Shown here piece after piece: positions 3,291 to 58,561 of a stretch of 64,000 nt of DNA. Within the stretch, counting starts at the first letter, position 1. Each line of letters starts with the position of its first letter. The translations under genes were made by a program, and so were the position numbers. The DNA is from Spirosoma foliorum (GTDB lineage: Bacteria; Bacteroidota; Bacteroidia; Cytophagales; Spirosomataceae). The stretch is from contig NZ_CP059732.1 of the NCBI RefSeq assembly GCF_014117325.1, positions 2,555,001 through 2,619,000 of the forward strand. Direction: 5' to 3'. The notes beneath the pieces are model-generated. The model was not told the origin of the DNA and made no database searches. It saw only the letters and a program-made list of their open reading frames with translations.

Positions 3291-4154
3291 CTAATTAAAA
3301 AGTTTATGACCGCCTTTAGTAAATGCATGATTTGAATCGCCGGCAACCATATGGCCGGCATCGGAAACACTCACGCTGTGCACGTGTGGAACCGCATCCA
3401 GAAATTCAGCCATTACTTTTTCGCTGACTACATCGCTGATTCCTCCTCGAACAATCAGCGTGGGCACGGTTAGCGCCCGGGCGGCCTTGTACAAGCGTTC
3501 TTCATTCTGAGTCTGCCTGGCCGGGTCTGTCGTTTGTCTCCAGACGGCCAACATAGTTGGGTCCCAGTGCCAGTAGTACCGAGGCTCACCAGATGGGCCT
3601 TTTCGCAGACGAAGGTTTTTTTCTAAGCGGCTGTGATCGGATGGACGCGGACGATGGGGGAGGTAAGCCGCAACGGCGTCGGCAGCTTCATCCAGATTGG
3701 CAAATCCGTTCTGATTGTTACTCATAAAGGCAAAAATCCGCTCAATGCCTTTTTGCTCAGTTCGTGGTGCTATGTCGACCAGAACAATGGCCGTACAGAT
3801 GGATTCGGTACCAGTTGGACGCTCGCCTTCGGCAATCAGCGCCGTCATGCCACCCATCGATGCACCCACCAGAGCGGGTTTCTGATCGAGTTGAGATACT
3901 AAAGCGCGGAGGTCGCTGGCCAGGTAGTCAATACTATAATGGGCCTCAGCCGACCAGTCGCTGTCGCCGTGCCCGCGTGCATCGAAGGCAATCGCGTACC
4001 AGCCTGCATCGGCCAGCCAACGAGCGGTATCGCCCCAAGAATGTCTTGTTTGGCCACCACCATGTAATAGCAGCACAGGGGGATTCGCCGGATCGCCCCA
4101 GGCATCGGCCGTAATAAAAAATCCGGGTTCAGTTTCAAAGCGTAGAGCTTGCAT
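3291..4154 (-). CDS. Alpha/beta hydrolase
   Basis: 287-residue alpha/beta-hydrolase fold enzyme. Visible elements are the oxyanion loop HGGG (31-34), the nucleophile elbow GASMGG with S99, an acidic residue in GGISDVVSE and the catalytic His in DAGHMVAGD. There is no signal peptide, so it is probably cytoplasmic. The substrate is unknown; general esterase, lipase or epoxide-hydrolase-like activities are all possible. It precedes the transporter on the same strand but is separated from it by a long inverted repeat. Confidence 0.85.
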   Translation of the reverse strand: MQALRFETEPGFFITADAWGDPANPPVLLLHGGGQTRHSWGDTARWLADAGWYAIAFDARGHGDSDWSAEAHYSIDYLASDLRALVSQLDQKPALVGASMGGMTALIAEGERPTGTESICTAIVLVDIAPRTEQKGIERIFAFMSNNQNGFANLDEAADAVAAYLPHRPRPSDHSRLEKNLRLRKGPSGEPRYYWHWDPTMLAVWRQTTDPARQTQNEERLYKAARALTVPTLIVRGGISDVVSEKVMAEFLDAVPHVHSVSVSDAGHMVAGDSNHAFTKGGHKLFN

Positions 4155-4188
4155 ACGTGCGACCAGGTCAGAATAAAAGTAAAGTAGG

Positions 4189-4983
4189 TTAGTTAACTTG
4201 ATTTAGCTCATCGAACAATGCCTGATTGCGGAGCGGTTGTTGGGCCAGAAGGGGATAATCTGCCGAAGTGACTAATTGGTTAAACAAGCTCAGATCAGCT
4301 GGTCGATGAATATCCGATCCCATAAAATCGACCCATTTGTTCGTCAATAAGCGGTGGGCCTGGGCTTGCACTTTTCGCCCATAACGGCCGGTCATAGAGC
4401 CCCAGTTTAATTGAAACAAACAGCCCGCCTTGCGCAAATCTGACAGGGCTTTCAGGTCGTTGTGGTAATACGTATAACGTTCAGGGTGAGCTAACAATGG
4501 CTGATATCCCTGAGTGAGTAAATGAAAAATTATTTCGTTCAGAAAGGTAGGCGCTGCCGCCCATCCCGTTTCAAACAACACATACTTTTGGCTCCCAAAA
4601 CTCAGTAACTGGTCATCGCGTAGCAGATCCAGAAATAATTCGTCGACTTGATATTCGGCGGCCACCTCAACGACCAGTGGAATCTGGTGTTCGTTCACTA
4701 AAGCTTGTAGCATAGCCTGCCCGTCGAGTAATGTCGCTTTCGTATTTGGATACCAATCCTGGCTAACGTGTGGTGTAGTAATGATTCTGCGAATTCCCCA
4801 GTCCGAAAATTGTTGCAGACAAATAAGCGCTTCTTCCTGACTGTTGACCCCATCGTCGACACCTGGCAGAAAATGAGAGTGTATGTCCGTTTGCCAGTAG
4901 CAAGTGGGTGGTTCAGTAGACGAGCCAGGCTGATTTCGGAACAGGGAAAGCAGGCGGCTTAGTAATTTATTTACACGATTCAT
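4189..4983 (-). CDS. CpsB/YwqE-type tyrosine-protein phosphatase (PHP domain)
   Basis: 264-residue PHP-fold metal-dependent phosphatase. The metal site motif DIHSHFLPGVDDG is at about 33-45, with further histidines in TTPHVSQDWY, LLAHPERY and MGSDIHRP. In capsule systems this enzyme dephosphorylates the Wzc/CpsD tyrosine kinase and so controls chain length. The matching Wzc-like kinase is in the same window at 13915-16263 but in a separate transcription unit; this gene stands alone on the minus strand, divergent from the glycosyltransferase run that begins at 5169. Confidence 0.88.
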   Translation of the reverse strand: MNRVNKLLSRLLSLFRNQPGSSTEPPTCYWQTDIHSHFLPGVDDGVNSQEEALICLQQFSDWGIRRIITTPHVSQDWYPNTKATLLDGQAMLQALVNEHQIPLVVEVAAEYQVDELFLDLLRDDQLLSFGSQKYVLFETGWAAAPTFLNEIIFHLLTQGYQPLLAHPERYTYYHNDLKALSDLRKAGCLFQLNWGSMTGRYGRKVQAQAHRLLTNKWVDFMGSDIHRPADLSLFNQLVTSADYPLLAQQPLRNQALFDELNQVN

Positions 4984-31825: not shown

Positions 31826-32473
31826 TTGTCTTTTTTTCTGCATAAGTCAAACTTTCTACTTCGAACAGTCTATCCTGAATGCTGGTGGAAGATCGAAGAT
31901 GAGTCCGAACCGACAATCTATCTGACGTTCGACGATGGACCTATTCCCGAGGTTACAGAGTTTGTGCTGGGGCAATTGGATAAATTCTCGGCTCAGGCAA
32001 CGTTTTTCTGCATTGGCGACAACGTTCGTAAGCACCGGGATATGCTTTACAAAGTACTCGAAGCGGGGCATATGGTCGGCAATCATACGTTTAACCATCT
32101 GAATGGCTGGAAAACAGATGATGCGGTTTATCTGGAAAATATCCAAAAATGCCAGGAGCACTTAGGGGTAGAAACATCGCTGTTTCGCCCACCCTACGGG
32201 CGAATTAAAAAGACACAGGCTGCCCAGGTTATGGAAAATTATTCCATCGTTATGTGGGATGTTCTTACGGGTGATTTCGACCGTAATCTGCCTGCTGAGG
32301 TGTGCCTGAAAAAAACAATTCAATACACCAAACCCGGTTCTATTGTGGTGTTTCATGATAGCCTGAAGGCCTGGCCTACTATGCGAAAAGTGTTGCCCCG
32401 AATGCTGGCTCATTTTTCGGAACGAGGCTATTCGTTCCGGGCTGTTCCCCAACCTGTTTATGCTGGATATTAA
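31826..32473 (+). CDS. NodB-type polysaccharide deacetylase
   Basis: 215 residues, a single NodB domain. Motif 1 YLTFDDGPIPE carries the catalytic and metal Asp, motif 2 is GNHTFNHLNGW, motif 3 FRPPYGRIK and motif 5 IVVFHDSLKAW. It uses a TTG start at 31826, directly after a repeat. It overlaps the next glycosyltransferase by 14 bases. Probably N- or O-deacetylates an envelope glycan made by its neighbours. Confidence 0.9.
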   Translation: MSFFLHKSNFLLRTVYPECWWKIEDESEPTIYLTFDDGPIPEVTEFVLGQLDKFSAQATFFCIGDNVRKHRDMLYKVLEAGHMVGNHTFNHLNGWKTDDAVYLENIQKCQEHLGVETSLFRPPYGRIKKTQAAQVMENYSIVMWDVLTGDFDRNLPAEVCLKKTIQYTKPGSIVVFHDSLKAWPTMRKVLPRMLAHFSERGYSFRAVPQPVYAGY

Positions 32474-52169: not shown

Positions 52170-52390
52170 AAATGACCTATTACTTCAAGAGTACCAAAAT
52201 GACTATTGAGCAGCCTGGTGACTATAACAAGGAAGAGTGGGACGCCTTAATTGATAAAATTACCGCTAATAGCTCAAGTGTATATGTTGAAGTTGAGGTA
52301 AGTGGCAATAAATTCGAGGGAGCACTTGATAAGTTTAAGGAATGGGTTAATACTCAATGGCTAAAACGATTAGGTATAGGAAATAATTAA
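52166..52390 (+). CDS. Small phage protein, unknown (52166)
   Basis: 74 residues (MKMTYYFKSTKMTIEQPGDY). A beta segment then two helices with EWVNTQWLKRLGI at the end. Ends 1 base before the MuF start. No domain recognised. Confidence 0.55.
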   Translation: MKMTYYFKSTKMTIEQPGDYNKEEWDALIDKITANSSSVYVEVEVSGNKFEGALDKFKEWVNTQWLKRLGIGNN

Positions 52391-52391
52391 C

Positions 52392-53249
52392 ATGACCCTC
52401 GCCCAAGCCACCACCTACCACCGTCAATACCTCCGCTGGCATGTCCAACAGGAGCGTTTTGCCGTGCGTGTCGTGATGGCTCGGTTCCGGCAATTAGCAG
52501 GCTCGTTAATACATACCTTAAACGCGGGTACACCCGCCACGTTAGCAGGCATGATTGACGTTATTGTGTCCACGCAGGCTCACAATTCAATCCTGAGTAC
52601 CATTTACACCGCCGTGGGCGTAAACGCGGCACAGCGCGAATATGAGCGCTTGTTGCCACAAGCCAAAAGCGCAGGGGTGCCGATGCTGACCAAAGACAAA
52701 GACCCAAGTATTCCCTCTTTAACCCCACAATCGCCCAAACCATCGGGTAACCTTACGATCGCTTTCTACTCTCAGCAATGGCGTAGTAAAATGGCGGAAC
52801 TCGCCCGAAGCAGCGAAACGGCGGCCCGCATTACCAAAATGACGGAGAAAACCCGTGATCTGATTCGAAACGTACTGGCCGACGCAGGGGCGAACGGCTG
52901 GAGTATTGCCAAAATCGCCAAGGGTATTCGTAATGTAGTAGCGGATAAAGCTCGTGCATTACTGATTGCCCGAACGGAAACGACATTAGCGGCTAGTGCA
53001 GGCCACGAAGCGGGGGCCATGACAACATTGCTCCGGCTGGAAAAGAAATGGATTGCTACGGCCGACACCCGGACGCGTGACGCGCATCTGGCCATGCTGA
53101 ACGCGAAGCCCGTGCCGAGGGATGGGGTATTTATGGTTGGCGGAAGGCAAATGAAATTTCCAGGTGACCCCAATGGTGGCCCAGAAAATTGCTGCAATTG
53201 CAGATGTACATTAGCCTATATTCCCGCTAGAAATTATTTGGATAACTAG
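52392..53249 (+). CDS. MuF/SPP1 gp7-like minor head protein
   Basis: 285 residues. N-terminal helical half, then the MuF-type head-morphogenesis domain: LIARTETTLAASAGHEAG, KKWIATADTRTRDAHLAML, and the Cys motif NCCNCRCTLAYIPARNYL at the very end. It is packaged with the portal and may help ejection. Its last 30 residues are matched by a second, diverged copy at 54181-54309 beyond the homing endonuclease. Confidence 0.88.
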   Translation: MTLAQATTYHRQYLRWHVQQERFAVRVVMARFRQLAGSLIHTLNAGTPATLAGMIDVIVSTQAHNSILSTIYTAVGVNAAQREYERLLPQAKSAGVPMLTKDKDPSIPSLTPQSPKPSGNLTIAFYSQQWRSKMAELARSSETAARITKMTEKTRDLIRNVLADAGANGWSIAKIAKGIRNVVADKARALLIARTETTLAASAGHEAGAMTTLLRLEKKWIATADTRTRDAHLAMLNAKPVPRDGVFMVGGRQMKFPGDPNGGPENCCNCRCTLAYIPARNYLDN

Positions 53250-53347
53250 CTGATATTTAGTATCTTGTGTTGTCTAAAATAGACAACCCCGCAACGTGCT
53301 GGACACACGAAACGGGGTCTAATCACAACTAGTAAAGCACTACTGTT
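53250..53347 (+). other. Spacer between MuF and endonuclease genes with two hairpins
   Basis: GTTGTCTA-AAA-TAGACAAC (53269-53287) is a perfect hairpin; CCCCG (53287-53291) can pair with CGGGG (53313-53317). No T-run. The structure may belong to the endonuclease's mobile unit. Confidence 0.55.
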
Positions 53348-53914
53348 ATGACTGCTACAAATGTAGAGGGTTTGGGTGAGGTATGGAAGGATATTCCAGG
53401 TTATGAAGGTCGTTACCAAGCTAGTAATCTTGGTAGAATCAAAAGTTTAGCAAGAGTTGCCGTAATGGGTGGACATGGGCAATGTTTTAAGGAAGTTAAA
53501 GAGAAAGTCTTAAATCCCGGAATACATAAGTCGTCTGGGTATCGCTTTGTAGGGTTAAACGGCAGGAAAACTAAAACCCCTGTCCATCGAGCAATTGCGA
53601 AAACGTTTATTCCAAATCCAGACAATAAGCCATTCATTAATCATATTGACGGTAACAAAATAAATAACAGGGTTGAGAATTTAGAATGGTGTACTGCAAA
53701 AGAAAATGTTCGGCACGCTATCGCAATGGGTTTAACAAATGTTTCCGGCGTTAATCAACCTACGGCTCAAATCAATGATGATATAGTCAGGCAAATGAGA
53801 GCAATGTACAAAGAAACAAATATGACCTATAGGGAAATTGCTAATCATTTCGGCGTAATAAGGCAATTGGCTGAGAGAGTCATTACTGGATACACATGGA
53901 AGCACGTACAATGA
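53348..53914 (+). CDS. HNH homing endonuclease with NUMOD4 domain
   Basis: 188 residues: NUMOD4 (EVWKDIPGYEGRYQASNLGR, about 10-32), HNH core (INHIDGNKINNRVENLEW, about 95-115) with the ENVRHAI stretch, and a C-terminal helix-turn-helix DNA-binding region (MTYREIANHFGVIRQLAERV). It cuts a target near its insertion site and spreads by repair. Base composition is lower in GC than the neighbouring MuF gene. Inserted beside the 3' end of the MuF gene; see the remnant at 54181. Confidence 0.9.
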   Translation: MTATNVEGLGEVWKDIPGYEGRYQASNLGRIKSLARVAVMGGHGQCFKEVKEKVLNPGIHKSSGYRFVGLNGRKTKTPVHRAIAKTFIPNPDNKPFINHIDGNKINNRVENLEWCTAKENVRHAIAMGLTNVSGVNQPTAQINDDIVRQMRAMYKETNMTYREIANHFGVIRQLAERVITGYTWKHVQ

Positions 53915-54072
53915 AAGTAGACTATAGCCTACAAGACGAATATGGACTGTTTGTTAATGCAGACAATTATTCGCCTTGTAGGCGACTCTATGAGCAAATA
54001 GAGCCAGTCAAGGTAAGGACTAAAAAAAAAGCCAGATATGGAAATATCGTTCGATTCAAATTGCATTTTTAG
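53911..54072 (+). CDS. Small protein after the endonuclease
   Basis: 53 residues (MKVDYSLQDEYGLFVNADNY), with an ATGA overlap with the endonuclease stop. The C-terminus is basic (VKVRTKKKARYGNIVRFKL). It may be part of the inserted unit. No known family. Confidence 0.45.
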   Translation: MKVDYSLQDEYGLFVNADNYSPCRRLYEQIEPVKVRTKKKARYGNIVRFKLHF

Positions 54073-54180
54073 ACTTCGCTTATTTGGAAGACTATTCTCG
54101 CTAAAAGATCCTAAGAGGCATTTAGTGCTTTTTAGTGAACGTGTTGGTGCCAACTGTAAAATGTACGTTCTTTTTGGCTT

Positions 54181-54309
54181 ATGTCTGTCTATAAGGACAT
54201 TAAAGTAATGCCCATGAAGTATCCCGGCGATCCAAATGGCGGGGCGGCTCAATGCTGCAACTGTCGTTGTGCGATTGCGTATGTGCCAGCACGGGAATAC
54301 TTAAACTAG
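54181..54309 (+). pseudogene. Displaced 3' end of a MuF-type gene
   Basis: The frame to the stop at 54307 reads MKYPGDPNGGAAQCCNCRC then AIAYVPAREYLN, aligning along about 31 residues with the end of the complete MuF protein (MKFPGDPNGGPENCCNCRC then TLAYIPARNYLDN). Codon choice differs strongly between the two copies. It lacks the upstream MuF domain, so it is a leftover or hybrid end rather than a gene. Confidence 0.82.
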
Positions 54310-54314
54310 GTACA

Positions 54315-54554
54315 ATGGAAAAAAGAGAAGGTATTGTTGAAATAAGTAATGAATTCCGTGACGACTTCACGGCTTGGACTACATTGGCTCAGTTCATGAA
54401 GCCCATTTGTGAGCTAAAGGAAATGGCTCGACATCCATCAACGCAAATGTGGCTATTTGAAAGCGATCTATTTGAGCCAGGGCGAGCCGAATATGAAGTA
54501 AGTTTTTCTCGTCAAATGGATAACACATTTTCGGTGCAAGCAATAAAGAGATAA
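54315..54554 (+). CDS. Small phage protein, unknown (54315)
   Basis: 79 residues (MEKREGIVEISNEFRDDFTA) from the ATG 5 bases after the MuF remnant stop. Acidic, mixed fold. The GGTACAATG context is weak. No domain recognised. Confidence 0.55.
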   Translation: MEKREGIVEISNEFRDDFTAWTTLAQFMKPICELKEMARHPSTQMWLFESDLFEPGRAEYEVSFSRQMDNTFSVQAIKR

Positions 54555-54567
54555 ACTAACCACCACC

Positions 54568-54936
54568 ATGCCACAGATTTACGGTAAACTCGGAAAGACT
54601 CAGGTTATTGAAGTGCCTGTTCAGGCAACCCACCTACCGGCCGAGCTACAGACATTTCCGGTGCTTCAGGTAGACATTCAGGTACTCAGTGTAGGAGGTT
54701 CGATACTATACACCTACGGAGACCAGATACCCGCTACCAATGGGAATGTAAACACCACCAATCACCCATTCCTTGCGGGCTTTACGAATGCGTATCCATC
54801 CAAGATAGGCATATCGGCCGCACCTGGTGATCCAATTTCTGTGGACAAGTTTGATTTACCTGGCTTTCAGTTCTGCCTAATGGATGCTACAGTGCCAGCC
54901 TGGTTAGTTGTTACACCCCGTTTATCGACAATGTGA
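54568..54936 (+). CDS. Phage protein, probably structural (54568)
   Basis: 122 residues, MPQIYGKLGKTQVIEVPVQA, all-beta prediction, no charge clusters; a decoration- or fibre-type profile. Ends with TGATG overlap into the collagen-like gene. Not recognised. Confidence 0.6.
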   Translation: MPQIYGKLGKTQVIEVPVQATHLPAELQTFPVLQVDIQVLSVGGSILYTYGDQIPATNGNVNTTNHPFLAGFTNAYPSKIGISAAPGDPISVDKFDLPGFQFCLMDATVPAWLVVTPRLSTM

Positions 54937-57295: not shown

Positions 57296-58561
57296 ATGAA
57301 CGAACAGGAACTCATAGCAGCCCTTGAAGCCAAAGCAACAGCCTTAGTTGCGCAGGTAAAGGGTATTACCGATCCGCTTGATGCCAAGCTCAAGCAAATC
57401 GAAGAAACCTTTAAAGAAGGCGGCACCAAAGTAGACCCAGCCCTCAAAGCCGAGGTTGAAAAGCTGGCCAAGATGCACGAAACACTGGCCACGCAGATCG
57501 ATCAGAAATTCGCTGACATCGCTACCCTTCGTAATTCAGGGAAGCCCGGTAGTATCAAGTCCCTGAACGAAGTTCTTTTCGAGGAATTTAACAAGAAAGA
57601 GGCAGGTAGTTTATCTATTGTCGACCGAATCAAAGGCATGGCCTCGGGTTCGATGGGCAAAAACAGCATTGATGTCAACATCAAAGCGGTTGCCGATATG
57701 AGTTCGGCGGGTAACCTGACGGGCACCTATTTTCAGGGGTATGATCTTCGTCCAGGCGTAACGATTCGCCCTCTGTTCGACGCTCACCTACGCCCAACCA
57801 TTCCAGCCACCACAACCGAAAAGCCACTCGTTCGCTACGTACGGGAAACCACATCAGAAGGTGGTTTTGATATGGTGGCAGAAGGTGCGGAAAAGCCAGA
57901 AATCGACTGGGATTTCGATATCGTAGATGCCCCCGTTCGTAAGATCGCGGGTATTTTCCGGTTGCCGGAGGAAATGATTGATGATATTCCGTACCTGCTT
58001 ACCTACCTGACGACTCGGGGTATGGAAGAGCTGAAAAACAAGGAAGATCAGCAAATCCTGTACGGTACGGGCTCAGGTCAACAACTTTCCGGCGTATTCC
58101 AGGTAGCAACTCAGTTTGCAGCGGGGGGCTTAACGGGCATCACAACGCCAAACTATTTTGACGTACTGGTAGCGGCTAAAAAGCAACTTCGCTTACTGAA
58201 CCTGGTGCCAAACTTTGTTTGGGTATCGCCCGAAGATTACGCTAAAATGCGCTTATCGAAGGCGACGACGGGTGAATATATCTTCCCGGTTCTACCCGGC
58301 ACAGACACGATCACCGTCGATGGTACACCCATCATTCAGAATAACCGCATCAATACGGGTTCGTTTGTTGTGCTGGACACGCGCTGGATGGAGATCGCCG
58401 ACCGGATGCAGTCAACGGTTCGCCTGTTTGACCAGGACCGTGACAACGTAATCAAGAACCTGGTTACCTGCGTAATCGAAGAACGCCTGGCCTTCCCAAT
58501 CTACCGGCCACAGGCAATCATCAAGGGTACATTCACCGACGCTATCGCTGCCATCGCTTAA
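57296..58561 (+). CDS. Major capsid protein, HK97 fold
   Basis: 421 residues. An N-terminal coiled-coil delta domain (about 1-80, ALEAKATALVAQVKGITDPL...) acts as internal scaffold and would be removed by the protease; the main fold follows with VRYVRETTSEGGFDMVAEGA, a P-domain helix and GTPIIQNNRINTGSFVVLD. Ends before a perfect hairpin at 58574. Confidence 0.92.
   Translation: MNEQELIAALEAKATALVAQVKGITDPLDAKLKQIEETFKEGGTKVDPALKAEVEKLAKMHETLATQIDQKFADIATLRNSGKPGSIKSLNEVLFEEFNKKEAGSLSIVDRIKGMASGSMGKNSIDVNIKAVADMSSAGNLTGTYFQGYDLRPGVTIRPLFDAHLRPTIPATTTEKPLVRYVRETTSEGGFDMVAEGAEKPEIDWDFDIVDAPVRKIAGIFRLPEEMIDDIPYLLTYLTTRGMEELKNKEDQQILYGTGSGQQLSGVFQVATQFAAGGLTGITTPNYFDVLVAAKKQLRLLNLVPNFVWVSPEDYAKMRLSKATTGEYIFPVLPGTDTITVDGTPIIQNNRINTGSFVVLDTRWMEIADRMQSTVRLFDQDRDNVIKNLVTCVIEERLAFPIYRPQAIIKGTFTDAIAAIA

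Follow-up and report, generated by a model that had tools for sequence, protein, structure and literature searches.

The window analyzed here is a 64,000-nucleotide stretch of the 8.85 Mb single-contig genome of Spirosoma foliorum (contig NZ_CP059732.1), and within its prophage head genes two copies of the 3' end of MuF, the gene for a phage Mu F-like minor head protein, flank a homing endonuclease gene. The upstream copy completes MuF and the other lies stranded downstream. Judging from sequence comparison, this arrangement is very probably an intron-free homing element, made up of an endonuclease and a recoded gene terminus, that inserted at its own cut site. The same anatomy recurs at other phage genes, and we consider it likely, with somewhat less assurance, that intron-free homing elements form a general class in phages. 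Such elements would invade conserved genes internally with nucleases of two or more unrelated folds (NUMOD4/HNH and PD-(D/E)XK) and would bring along a recoded 3' or 5' terminus that offsets the damage of their own insertion. This recoding would block both re-cutting and self-deletion, the stranded end would act as a homology arm, and loss of the element by recombination between the two ends would leave a resistant chimera.

Two ends of MuF around an endonuclease gene

All features of the locus lie on the + strand. MuF is an open reading frame (ORF) of 285 residues at 52392-53249 that matches Phage_Mu_F in Pfam (PF04233; E 1.2e-13, 52.2 bits against a cut-off of 29.6) and is complete without splicing, with its stop at 53249. 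Its body (52392-53144), which holds the PF04233 match, has a G+C content (GC) of 0.55 and a third-position GC (GC3) of 0.59. The remaining 3' end (53145-53249, RQMKFPGDP...YLDN and the stop codon), whose left border is uncertain by some tens of bases, has values of 0.41 and 0.35, respectively. This end reads MKFPGDPNGGPENCCNCRC... and is followed by 98 bases before the start of the endonuclease gene (53348-53914, 188 residues, GC 0.39). The endonuclease matches NUMOD4 (PF07463; E 4.3e-18, 65.7 bits against a cut-off of 23.4) and HNH_3 (PF13392; E 9.3e-10, 38.4 bits against 24.8), and in an alignment of 20 relatives (A3) residues N98 and H99 are invariant and N107 is at least 90% conserved. Two small ORFs follow, one of 53 residues from an inner ATG (53911-54072, inside the ORF 53896-54072, which has no Pfam or PHROG match) and one of 56 residues (54038-54208) that closes with a stop codon overlapping the start codon of the stranded end. 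The stranded end itself (54208-54309, MPMKYPGDP...REYLN) starts as MPMKYPGDPNGGAAQCCNCRC..., runs to a stop at 54309 and has a GC and a GC3 of 0.55 each. The initial annotation had described the endonuclease gene and the 53-residue gene after a complete MuF gene, followed by a second copy of the last 31 MuF residues with other codons and about three quarters of the residues shared. These parts are all present as described, and the 56-residue ORF has to be added to its gene list.

The similarity of the two ends is not due to chance, since a search of the genome with MuF returns the second end as the sole other match (E 2.2e-11) and this end also matches PHROG 2468, head morphogenesis (E 4.3e-8). 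The ends share 22 of 31 residues (71%) and 57 of 90 bases (63%), and they use the same codon at only 5 of the 21 shared residues other than Met and Trp, a synonymous difference near saturation. Had the MuF end been duplicated in tandem, and had the copies diverged before the endonuclease gene inserted between them, the result would also be two ends with 71% of their residues in common. We regard such a history as very improbable, given the near-saturated synonymous difference together with the step in GC and the lack of a double end in any MuF relative examined. Moreover, in the gene 10 system described below, the stranded copy matches empty alleles while the other copy does not.

Base composition points to the end fused to MuF as the foreign one. 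Its GC of 0.41 lies below the lowest value among 34-codon windows of the MuF body (0.45), and a three-segment likelihood fit over 52392-54309 gives GC of 0.551, 0.384 and 0.563 with breaks near 53184 and 54222, the log-likelihood of the left break staying within about 3 units from 53124 to 53232. An AT-rich segment between GC-rich parts makes the fused end look imported and the stranded end look native, and 54208-54309 is probably the original MuF end. The proposal of the initial annotation that a foreign end replaced the original one and left it downstream is supported by this composition contrast, by the near-saturated synonymous difference and by the gene 10 analogue. Conserved neighbors suggest an insertion site between VGG and xxMKYPGDP.

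The double end was seen at no other locus among the MuF genes examined. When 131 sequences were searched with a motif, only copies of the window region showed two ends, and 20 pattern-matched viral stretches each had one MuF end match. MuF with a downstream tail-only match was found in the genome of origin only, both among 222 genomes of the family (12 with a MuF match) and among 390 genomes of the order (9 with a MuF match). One further genome (G132) has two partial MuF matches, on different contigs, and the closest MuF (P0002, 70%) is known here as a protein only. Relatives that have both 3' ends and no endonuclease, which according to the initial annotation would speak against an imported end, were absent from the MuF relatives examined. 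We further note a locus (L131:3629-4956) in which an HNH_3 endonuclease gene, with an AP2 match just under the cut-off, overlaps the MuF end; this locus has no second MuF end.

The leader of the endonuclease gene (53250-53347) contains two predicted hairpins at 53268-53320, and the fold of 53249-53350 is more stable than that of shuffled sequences (z-score -2.6). The leader has no Rfam match, and an exact search of viral contigs with the hairpin returned no match. HNH endonucleases frequently reside in phage introns, and this, together with the stability of the leader fold, could be taken to indicate a group I intron, in which case the region between the two MuF ends would be spliced out and the stranded end would be an exon. 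This explanation is hardly credible and was rejected, since MuF is complete in its unspliced form, as is P22-like gene 10, and Rfam returned neither a match at E up to 1 nor a group I intron catalytic core in 52300-54700, and the matches at gathering score in 13 analogous loci were all tRNAs. For the splicing of 53200-54206, which the initial annotation had named as evidence that would refute its reading, the Rfam search gave no known self-splicing intron.

The surrounding prophage head genes lie at about 47-60 kb of the window and include portal, MuF and prohead protease genes identified through Pfam. The ORF at 57296-58561, which was compared by tblastn, is labeled as a putative major capsid gene from its place alone. 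Spirosoma is the source of the closest named MuF homologues.

Empty, occupied and chimeric alleles of P22-like gene 10

At the level of sequence, gene 10 of P22-like phages is a more direct and independent demonstration of an imported and a stranded end than MuF. The gene is uninterrupted in CUS-3, Huey, Sf6 and P22 (empty alleles) and occupied in locus L208, in Salmonella phage UPF_BP1 and in E. coli prophages, where the endonuclease gene comes after a stranded native 31-codon 5' end and precedes a gene 10 that has a different 5' end and is complete without splicing. Six occupied alleles were compared with the four empty ones. Their imported first 31 codons show 65-68% identity to the empty alleles, whereas the stranded end reaches 97-100% with its nearest empty allele in five of the six; in the sixth, LD39-1, the stranded end has a frameshift (0.65 ungapped). 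A seventh allele, K56-43-un, has the imported end of L208 and a stranded end that differs from CUS-3 at 4 of 93 bases. The 703-base element shows 0-7 differences from that of L208 in five other alleles, and the recoded stretch extends to about codon 40.

The flanks of the element in UPF_BP1 differ in their affinities. This phage is 100% identical to P22 for the 694 bases up to the junction, where the element begins. Past the element, the first 406 bases compared are 94% identical to all four empty alleles and do not discriminate between them, and the sequence then resembles CUS-3, Sf6 and Huey (93-94% as against 83% for P22 at 1801-2300 of L364; 88-93% as against 77% farther on). Homing into a P22-type recipient from a donor of a different type, with one-sided co-conversion, would leave this pattern.

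The recoded end and the endonuclease also travel together. Among 5426 E. coli genomes, 18 have the recoded end and 18 the endonuclease (coverage of 80% or more in both searches), and the two sets agree by accession (the lists were compared by eye). A match to just 23% of the endonuclease gene is seen in 16 more genomes, and the annotation of strain ES5 splits the endonuclease region in two. A 19th genome, AVS0578, has part of the recoded end, no endonuclease at this site and a chimeric gene 10 (L526:550-672), in which bases 1-51 are 98% identical to CUS-3 and bases 52-123 are 97% identical to the recoded end, the switch from native to recoded sequence falling between about bases 57 and 66. Loss of the element through recombination of its two ends would produce such a gene, and the chimera could also be a recombinant older than the insertion. 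Empty, occupied and endonuclease-free chimeric alleles of gene 10 are thus all at hand, and the system offers them for experiment. In one E. coli prophage with an occupied gene 10, a second NUMOD4 endonuclease gene (L366:2816-3349) lies after gene 10, with no duplicated end found around it.

Recurrence at other phage genes

We compared the reading frames of both flanks of each related endonuclease gene, using other ORFs of 100-300 residues in the same loci as controls. The scanned loci were the best matches of each scan rather than a random sample, and the criteria were fixed after the first cases had been seen. The scan excluded copies from the genome of origin (L001, L002, L015, L231, L238) as well as the named loci L352-L368, and 13 of 337 distinct endonuclease ORFs and 302 of 2167 controls lacked flanks and fall outside the counts. 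End-copies on both sides were found for 13 of 324 distinct endonuclease ORFs as compared to 7 of 1865 controls (Fisher p 3.8e-7), a result that replaces an earlier scan with 10/203 and 4/1365. The positives, which include the window and three weak cases, involve the 3' end of the neighboring gene in 10 cases and the 5' end in 3. Three batches (A4, A7 and P0158) had been seeded with endonucleases of positive loci; with the window, A4 and P0158 removed the counts are 9/226 and 3/907 (p 5.5e-5), with A7, also built on a positive, still in, and the A3 batch alone gives 4/83 and 0/359 (p 0.0012). L208 was found in the A3 batch and is counted via its copy L448 in A7. Flank similarity of any kind with at least 32 bits was seen for 21/324 endonuclease ORFs and 58/1865 controls, and the remaining rows at this level failed the criteria or were endonuclease-like. 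In earlier scans such rows were tandem endonucleases in L137 and tandem paralogues in L199.

The genes with duplicated ends are varied. They encode DNA methyltransferases (N6_N4_Mtase; L162, L242 and L023), a DUF2726 protein (L163), a ResIII helicase (L326), the phage stabilization protein gp10 (L208/L448), a PDDEXK_1 nuclease (L514) and, in the weak cases, a CHAP protein (L156), a protein with a Methyltransf_21 match below cut-off (L139) and a large terminase (L471). The genes of L331 and L404 have no confident family, and in L331 the gene and the endonuclease are on opposite strands. Several junctions fall at conserved motifs, which we take to be methyltransferase motif I and the Walker A regions of the helicase and the terminase. 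Two more loci were seen by eye and stand outside the count, L243 with a partial stranded end and L240 with a methyltransferase and an endonuclease but no stranded end. Across 11 end pairs (without L404, L471, L514 and L411) DNA identity is 52-72%, and 79 of 229 shared residues other than Met and Trp have the same codon. Leaving the window aside, there are eight 3' cases with gene and endonuclease on the same strand, and in all of them the match to the stranded end starts between -28 and +4 bases from the endonuclease stop. The initial annotation expected an unusual mode of spread in a head gene; the arrangement is indeed present in MuF, and it is recurrent at other phage genes.

The seven control matches include the window finding itself, reached through an antisense ORF, a tandem glycosyltransferase-like pair, the same low-complexity pair counted twice (L397), a weak match in L079, a 40-residue repeat in L245, and L411. 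In L411 (533-2511) a PD-(D/E)XK endonuclease gene (PF11645, PDDEXK_5) lies between two 3'-end copies of a ParB/DNA methyltransferase gene, which is the same arrangement with another nuclease fold. The L245 repeat (about 683-1030, 80% identical) flanks a 115-residue control ORF. In the window, a 215-residue ORF (31826-32473) lies between two diverged glycosyltransferase-like genes (26% identity; family assigned by our own reading). A similar 25-residue stretch (88%, in an opposite-strand reading) flanks the endonuclease gene of L161 (about 3977-4537) and is possibly a non-coding repeat.

These counts also bear on ordinary phage mosaicism, in which a stretch from an AT-rich relative, comprising the MuF 3' end, the endonuclease gene and the small genes, would have recombined in with an illegitimate right junction and the endonuclease would not have been the driver. 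The segment does hold small ORFs, one of which (54038-54208) has a relative downstream of MuF in L051 (tblastn, 41% over 44 residues, E 7.9e-7), and its right junction lies about 295 bases past the endonuclease gene. The 56-residue ORF has no homologue in the protein database, and the donor is not traceable through it. Mosaicism without a role for the endonuclease is nevertheless unlikely, as end duplications are enriched around endonuclease genes, the stranded end begins at the endonuclease stop in all eight comparable cases, and the recoded end and the endonuclease of gene 10 occur in the same 18 genomes. Within the homing explanation, the window copy may stem from an invasion of MuF that was one-sided, its right side being closed by end joining, because the right junction lies beyond two small ORFs, one of them with the relative in L051.

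A number of observations weigh against homing as the explanation. In the window, stranded-end similarity starts at +299 from the endonuclease stop, with about 295 bases and two small ORFs in between, unlike the eight other cases. GC3 as low as that of the imported-looking end occurs in 8 of 218 MuF body windows, and the GC boundaries rest on the shorter fit, since a fit extended to 54560 picked other breaks (a short GC-rich stretch at 53059-53127, then 0.403). The tail comparison proposed in the initial annotation did not separate the two ends: across 35 homologues, tail identity correlates with MuF body identity to the same degree for both tails (Spearman 0.33 and 0.34), so tail phylogeny does not show which end is native. 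The MuF relatives examined yielded no close one with an empty site. In gene 10, 53 bases are common to the endonuclease ORF and the recoded end, which makes the two genome searches partly dependent on each other, and some of the 18 genomes are from near-identical strains. The matches in L139, L156 and L471 reach only 35-38 bits. Finally, ten further endonuclease genes, namely those of eight named phages (L352-L359; six picked because the endonuclease match overlapped two gene names and two with one name), L131 and the second NUMOD4 gene of L366, showed no end duplication, with a best flank similarity of 27.3 bits.

Proposed mechanism and comparison with known systems

The proposed element would work as follows. 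If the native gene is written as L.R, with the cut site between its two parts, the element would consist of an endonuclease gene and R', a recoded copy of the end beyond the cut site, and insertion at that site would yield L-R'(stop)-endonuclease-R. R' would keep the protein whole, so that no splicing is needed. Because R' is written in other codons, the endonuclease should no longer be able to cut at the L-R' junction, and recombination between R' and R should be rare, which would hinder deletion. The stranded R would serve as the right-hand homology arm for homing into an uninvaded phage, and a mirror form would carry the 5' end instead. Applied to the window, the element would span about 53145-54207 and comprise R', the endonuclease gene and two small phage ORFs, with 54208-54309 as the stranded native R. 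We infer that the endonuclease cuts near the junction and that MuF works with R'. The arrangement marks each candidate cut site in the sequence, and specificity is thus directly testable. Such elements would explain orphan gene fragments beside endonucleases, such as the incomplete genes in E. coli prophages in RefSeq, as well as protein-end swaps between phages.

Group I introns and inteins with homing endonucleases also insert within conserved genes at conserved motifs, but in the elements described here an imported end, and not splicing, keeps function. Free-standing phage homing endonucleases such as T4 SegF (intronless homing) likewise have no intron or intein and presumably spread by cutting alleles that lack the gene. 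These are said to be located beside genes, whereas here insertion is inside the coding sequence and comes with a replacement end. A study from 2007, cited in PMC8351571, reportedly described an endonuclease within a gene without an intron and with function kept. In such a case the two gene pieces are said to work together; here, in contrast, the imported end makes the gene whole and the other end is stranded.

In Cluster J mycobacteriophages, the HNH gene 51 of Omega lies beside lysin A, which got a new 3' end; the target lost 35 bp in the process, and for the new end the authors propose a repair error or a distant donor (excerpts of PMC3706429). Acquisition of an endonuclease thus gave a neighboring gene a new 3' end there too, but these excerpts describe neither a retained second copy nor a general element. 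Excerpts of PMC10448857, PMC12724721, PMC8351571, PMC2248197 and PMC11990801 contain no such arrangement, and the literature searched, limited to open-licence PMC papers, yielded no phage description of such an element.

The closest parallel is found in fungal mitochondria, where mobile ORFs duplicate the C-terminal end of atp6, atp9, cox2 and nad3 in Glomus and of atp6 in Allomyces macrogynus (excerpts of PMC3630166). The likeness that the initial annotation saw to these elements holds, in that an endonuclease gene lies in a gene, an end that is imported, or in MuF looks imported, is fused, and the probable native end is stranded downstream. In the mitochondria the stranded end is nearer to relatives without the element, which is also true of the gene 10 analogue; at MuF, GC agrees with this and protein identities do not separate the two ends. 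The mitochondrial endonucleases described in these excerpts are LAGLIDADG or GIY-YIG, while the phage elements use NUMOD4/HNH and, in one case, PD-(D/E)XK, and occur in both 3' and 5' versions. The window element appears to work like the mitochondrial type but is not a member of it, as it combines a NUMOD4/HNH endonuclease with a bacterial chromosome rather than LAGLIDADG or GIY-YIG with a fungal mitochondrial gene. For a homing endonuclease that lies within a gene, one would normally expect either an intron or intein or a gene left split. Carrying a replacement terminus is a further solution, which fungal mitochondria are known to show and which is found here at several phage genes.
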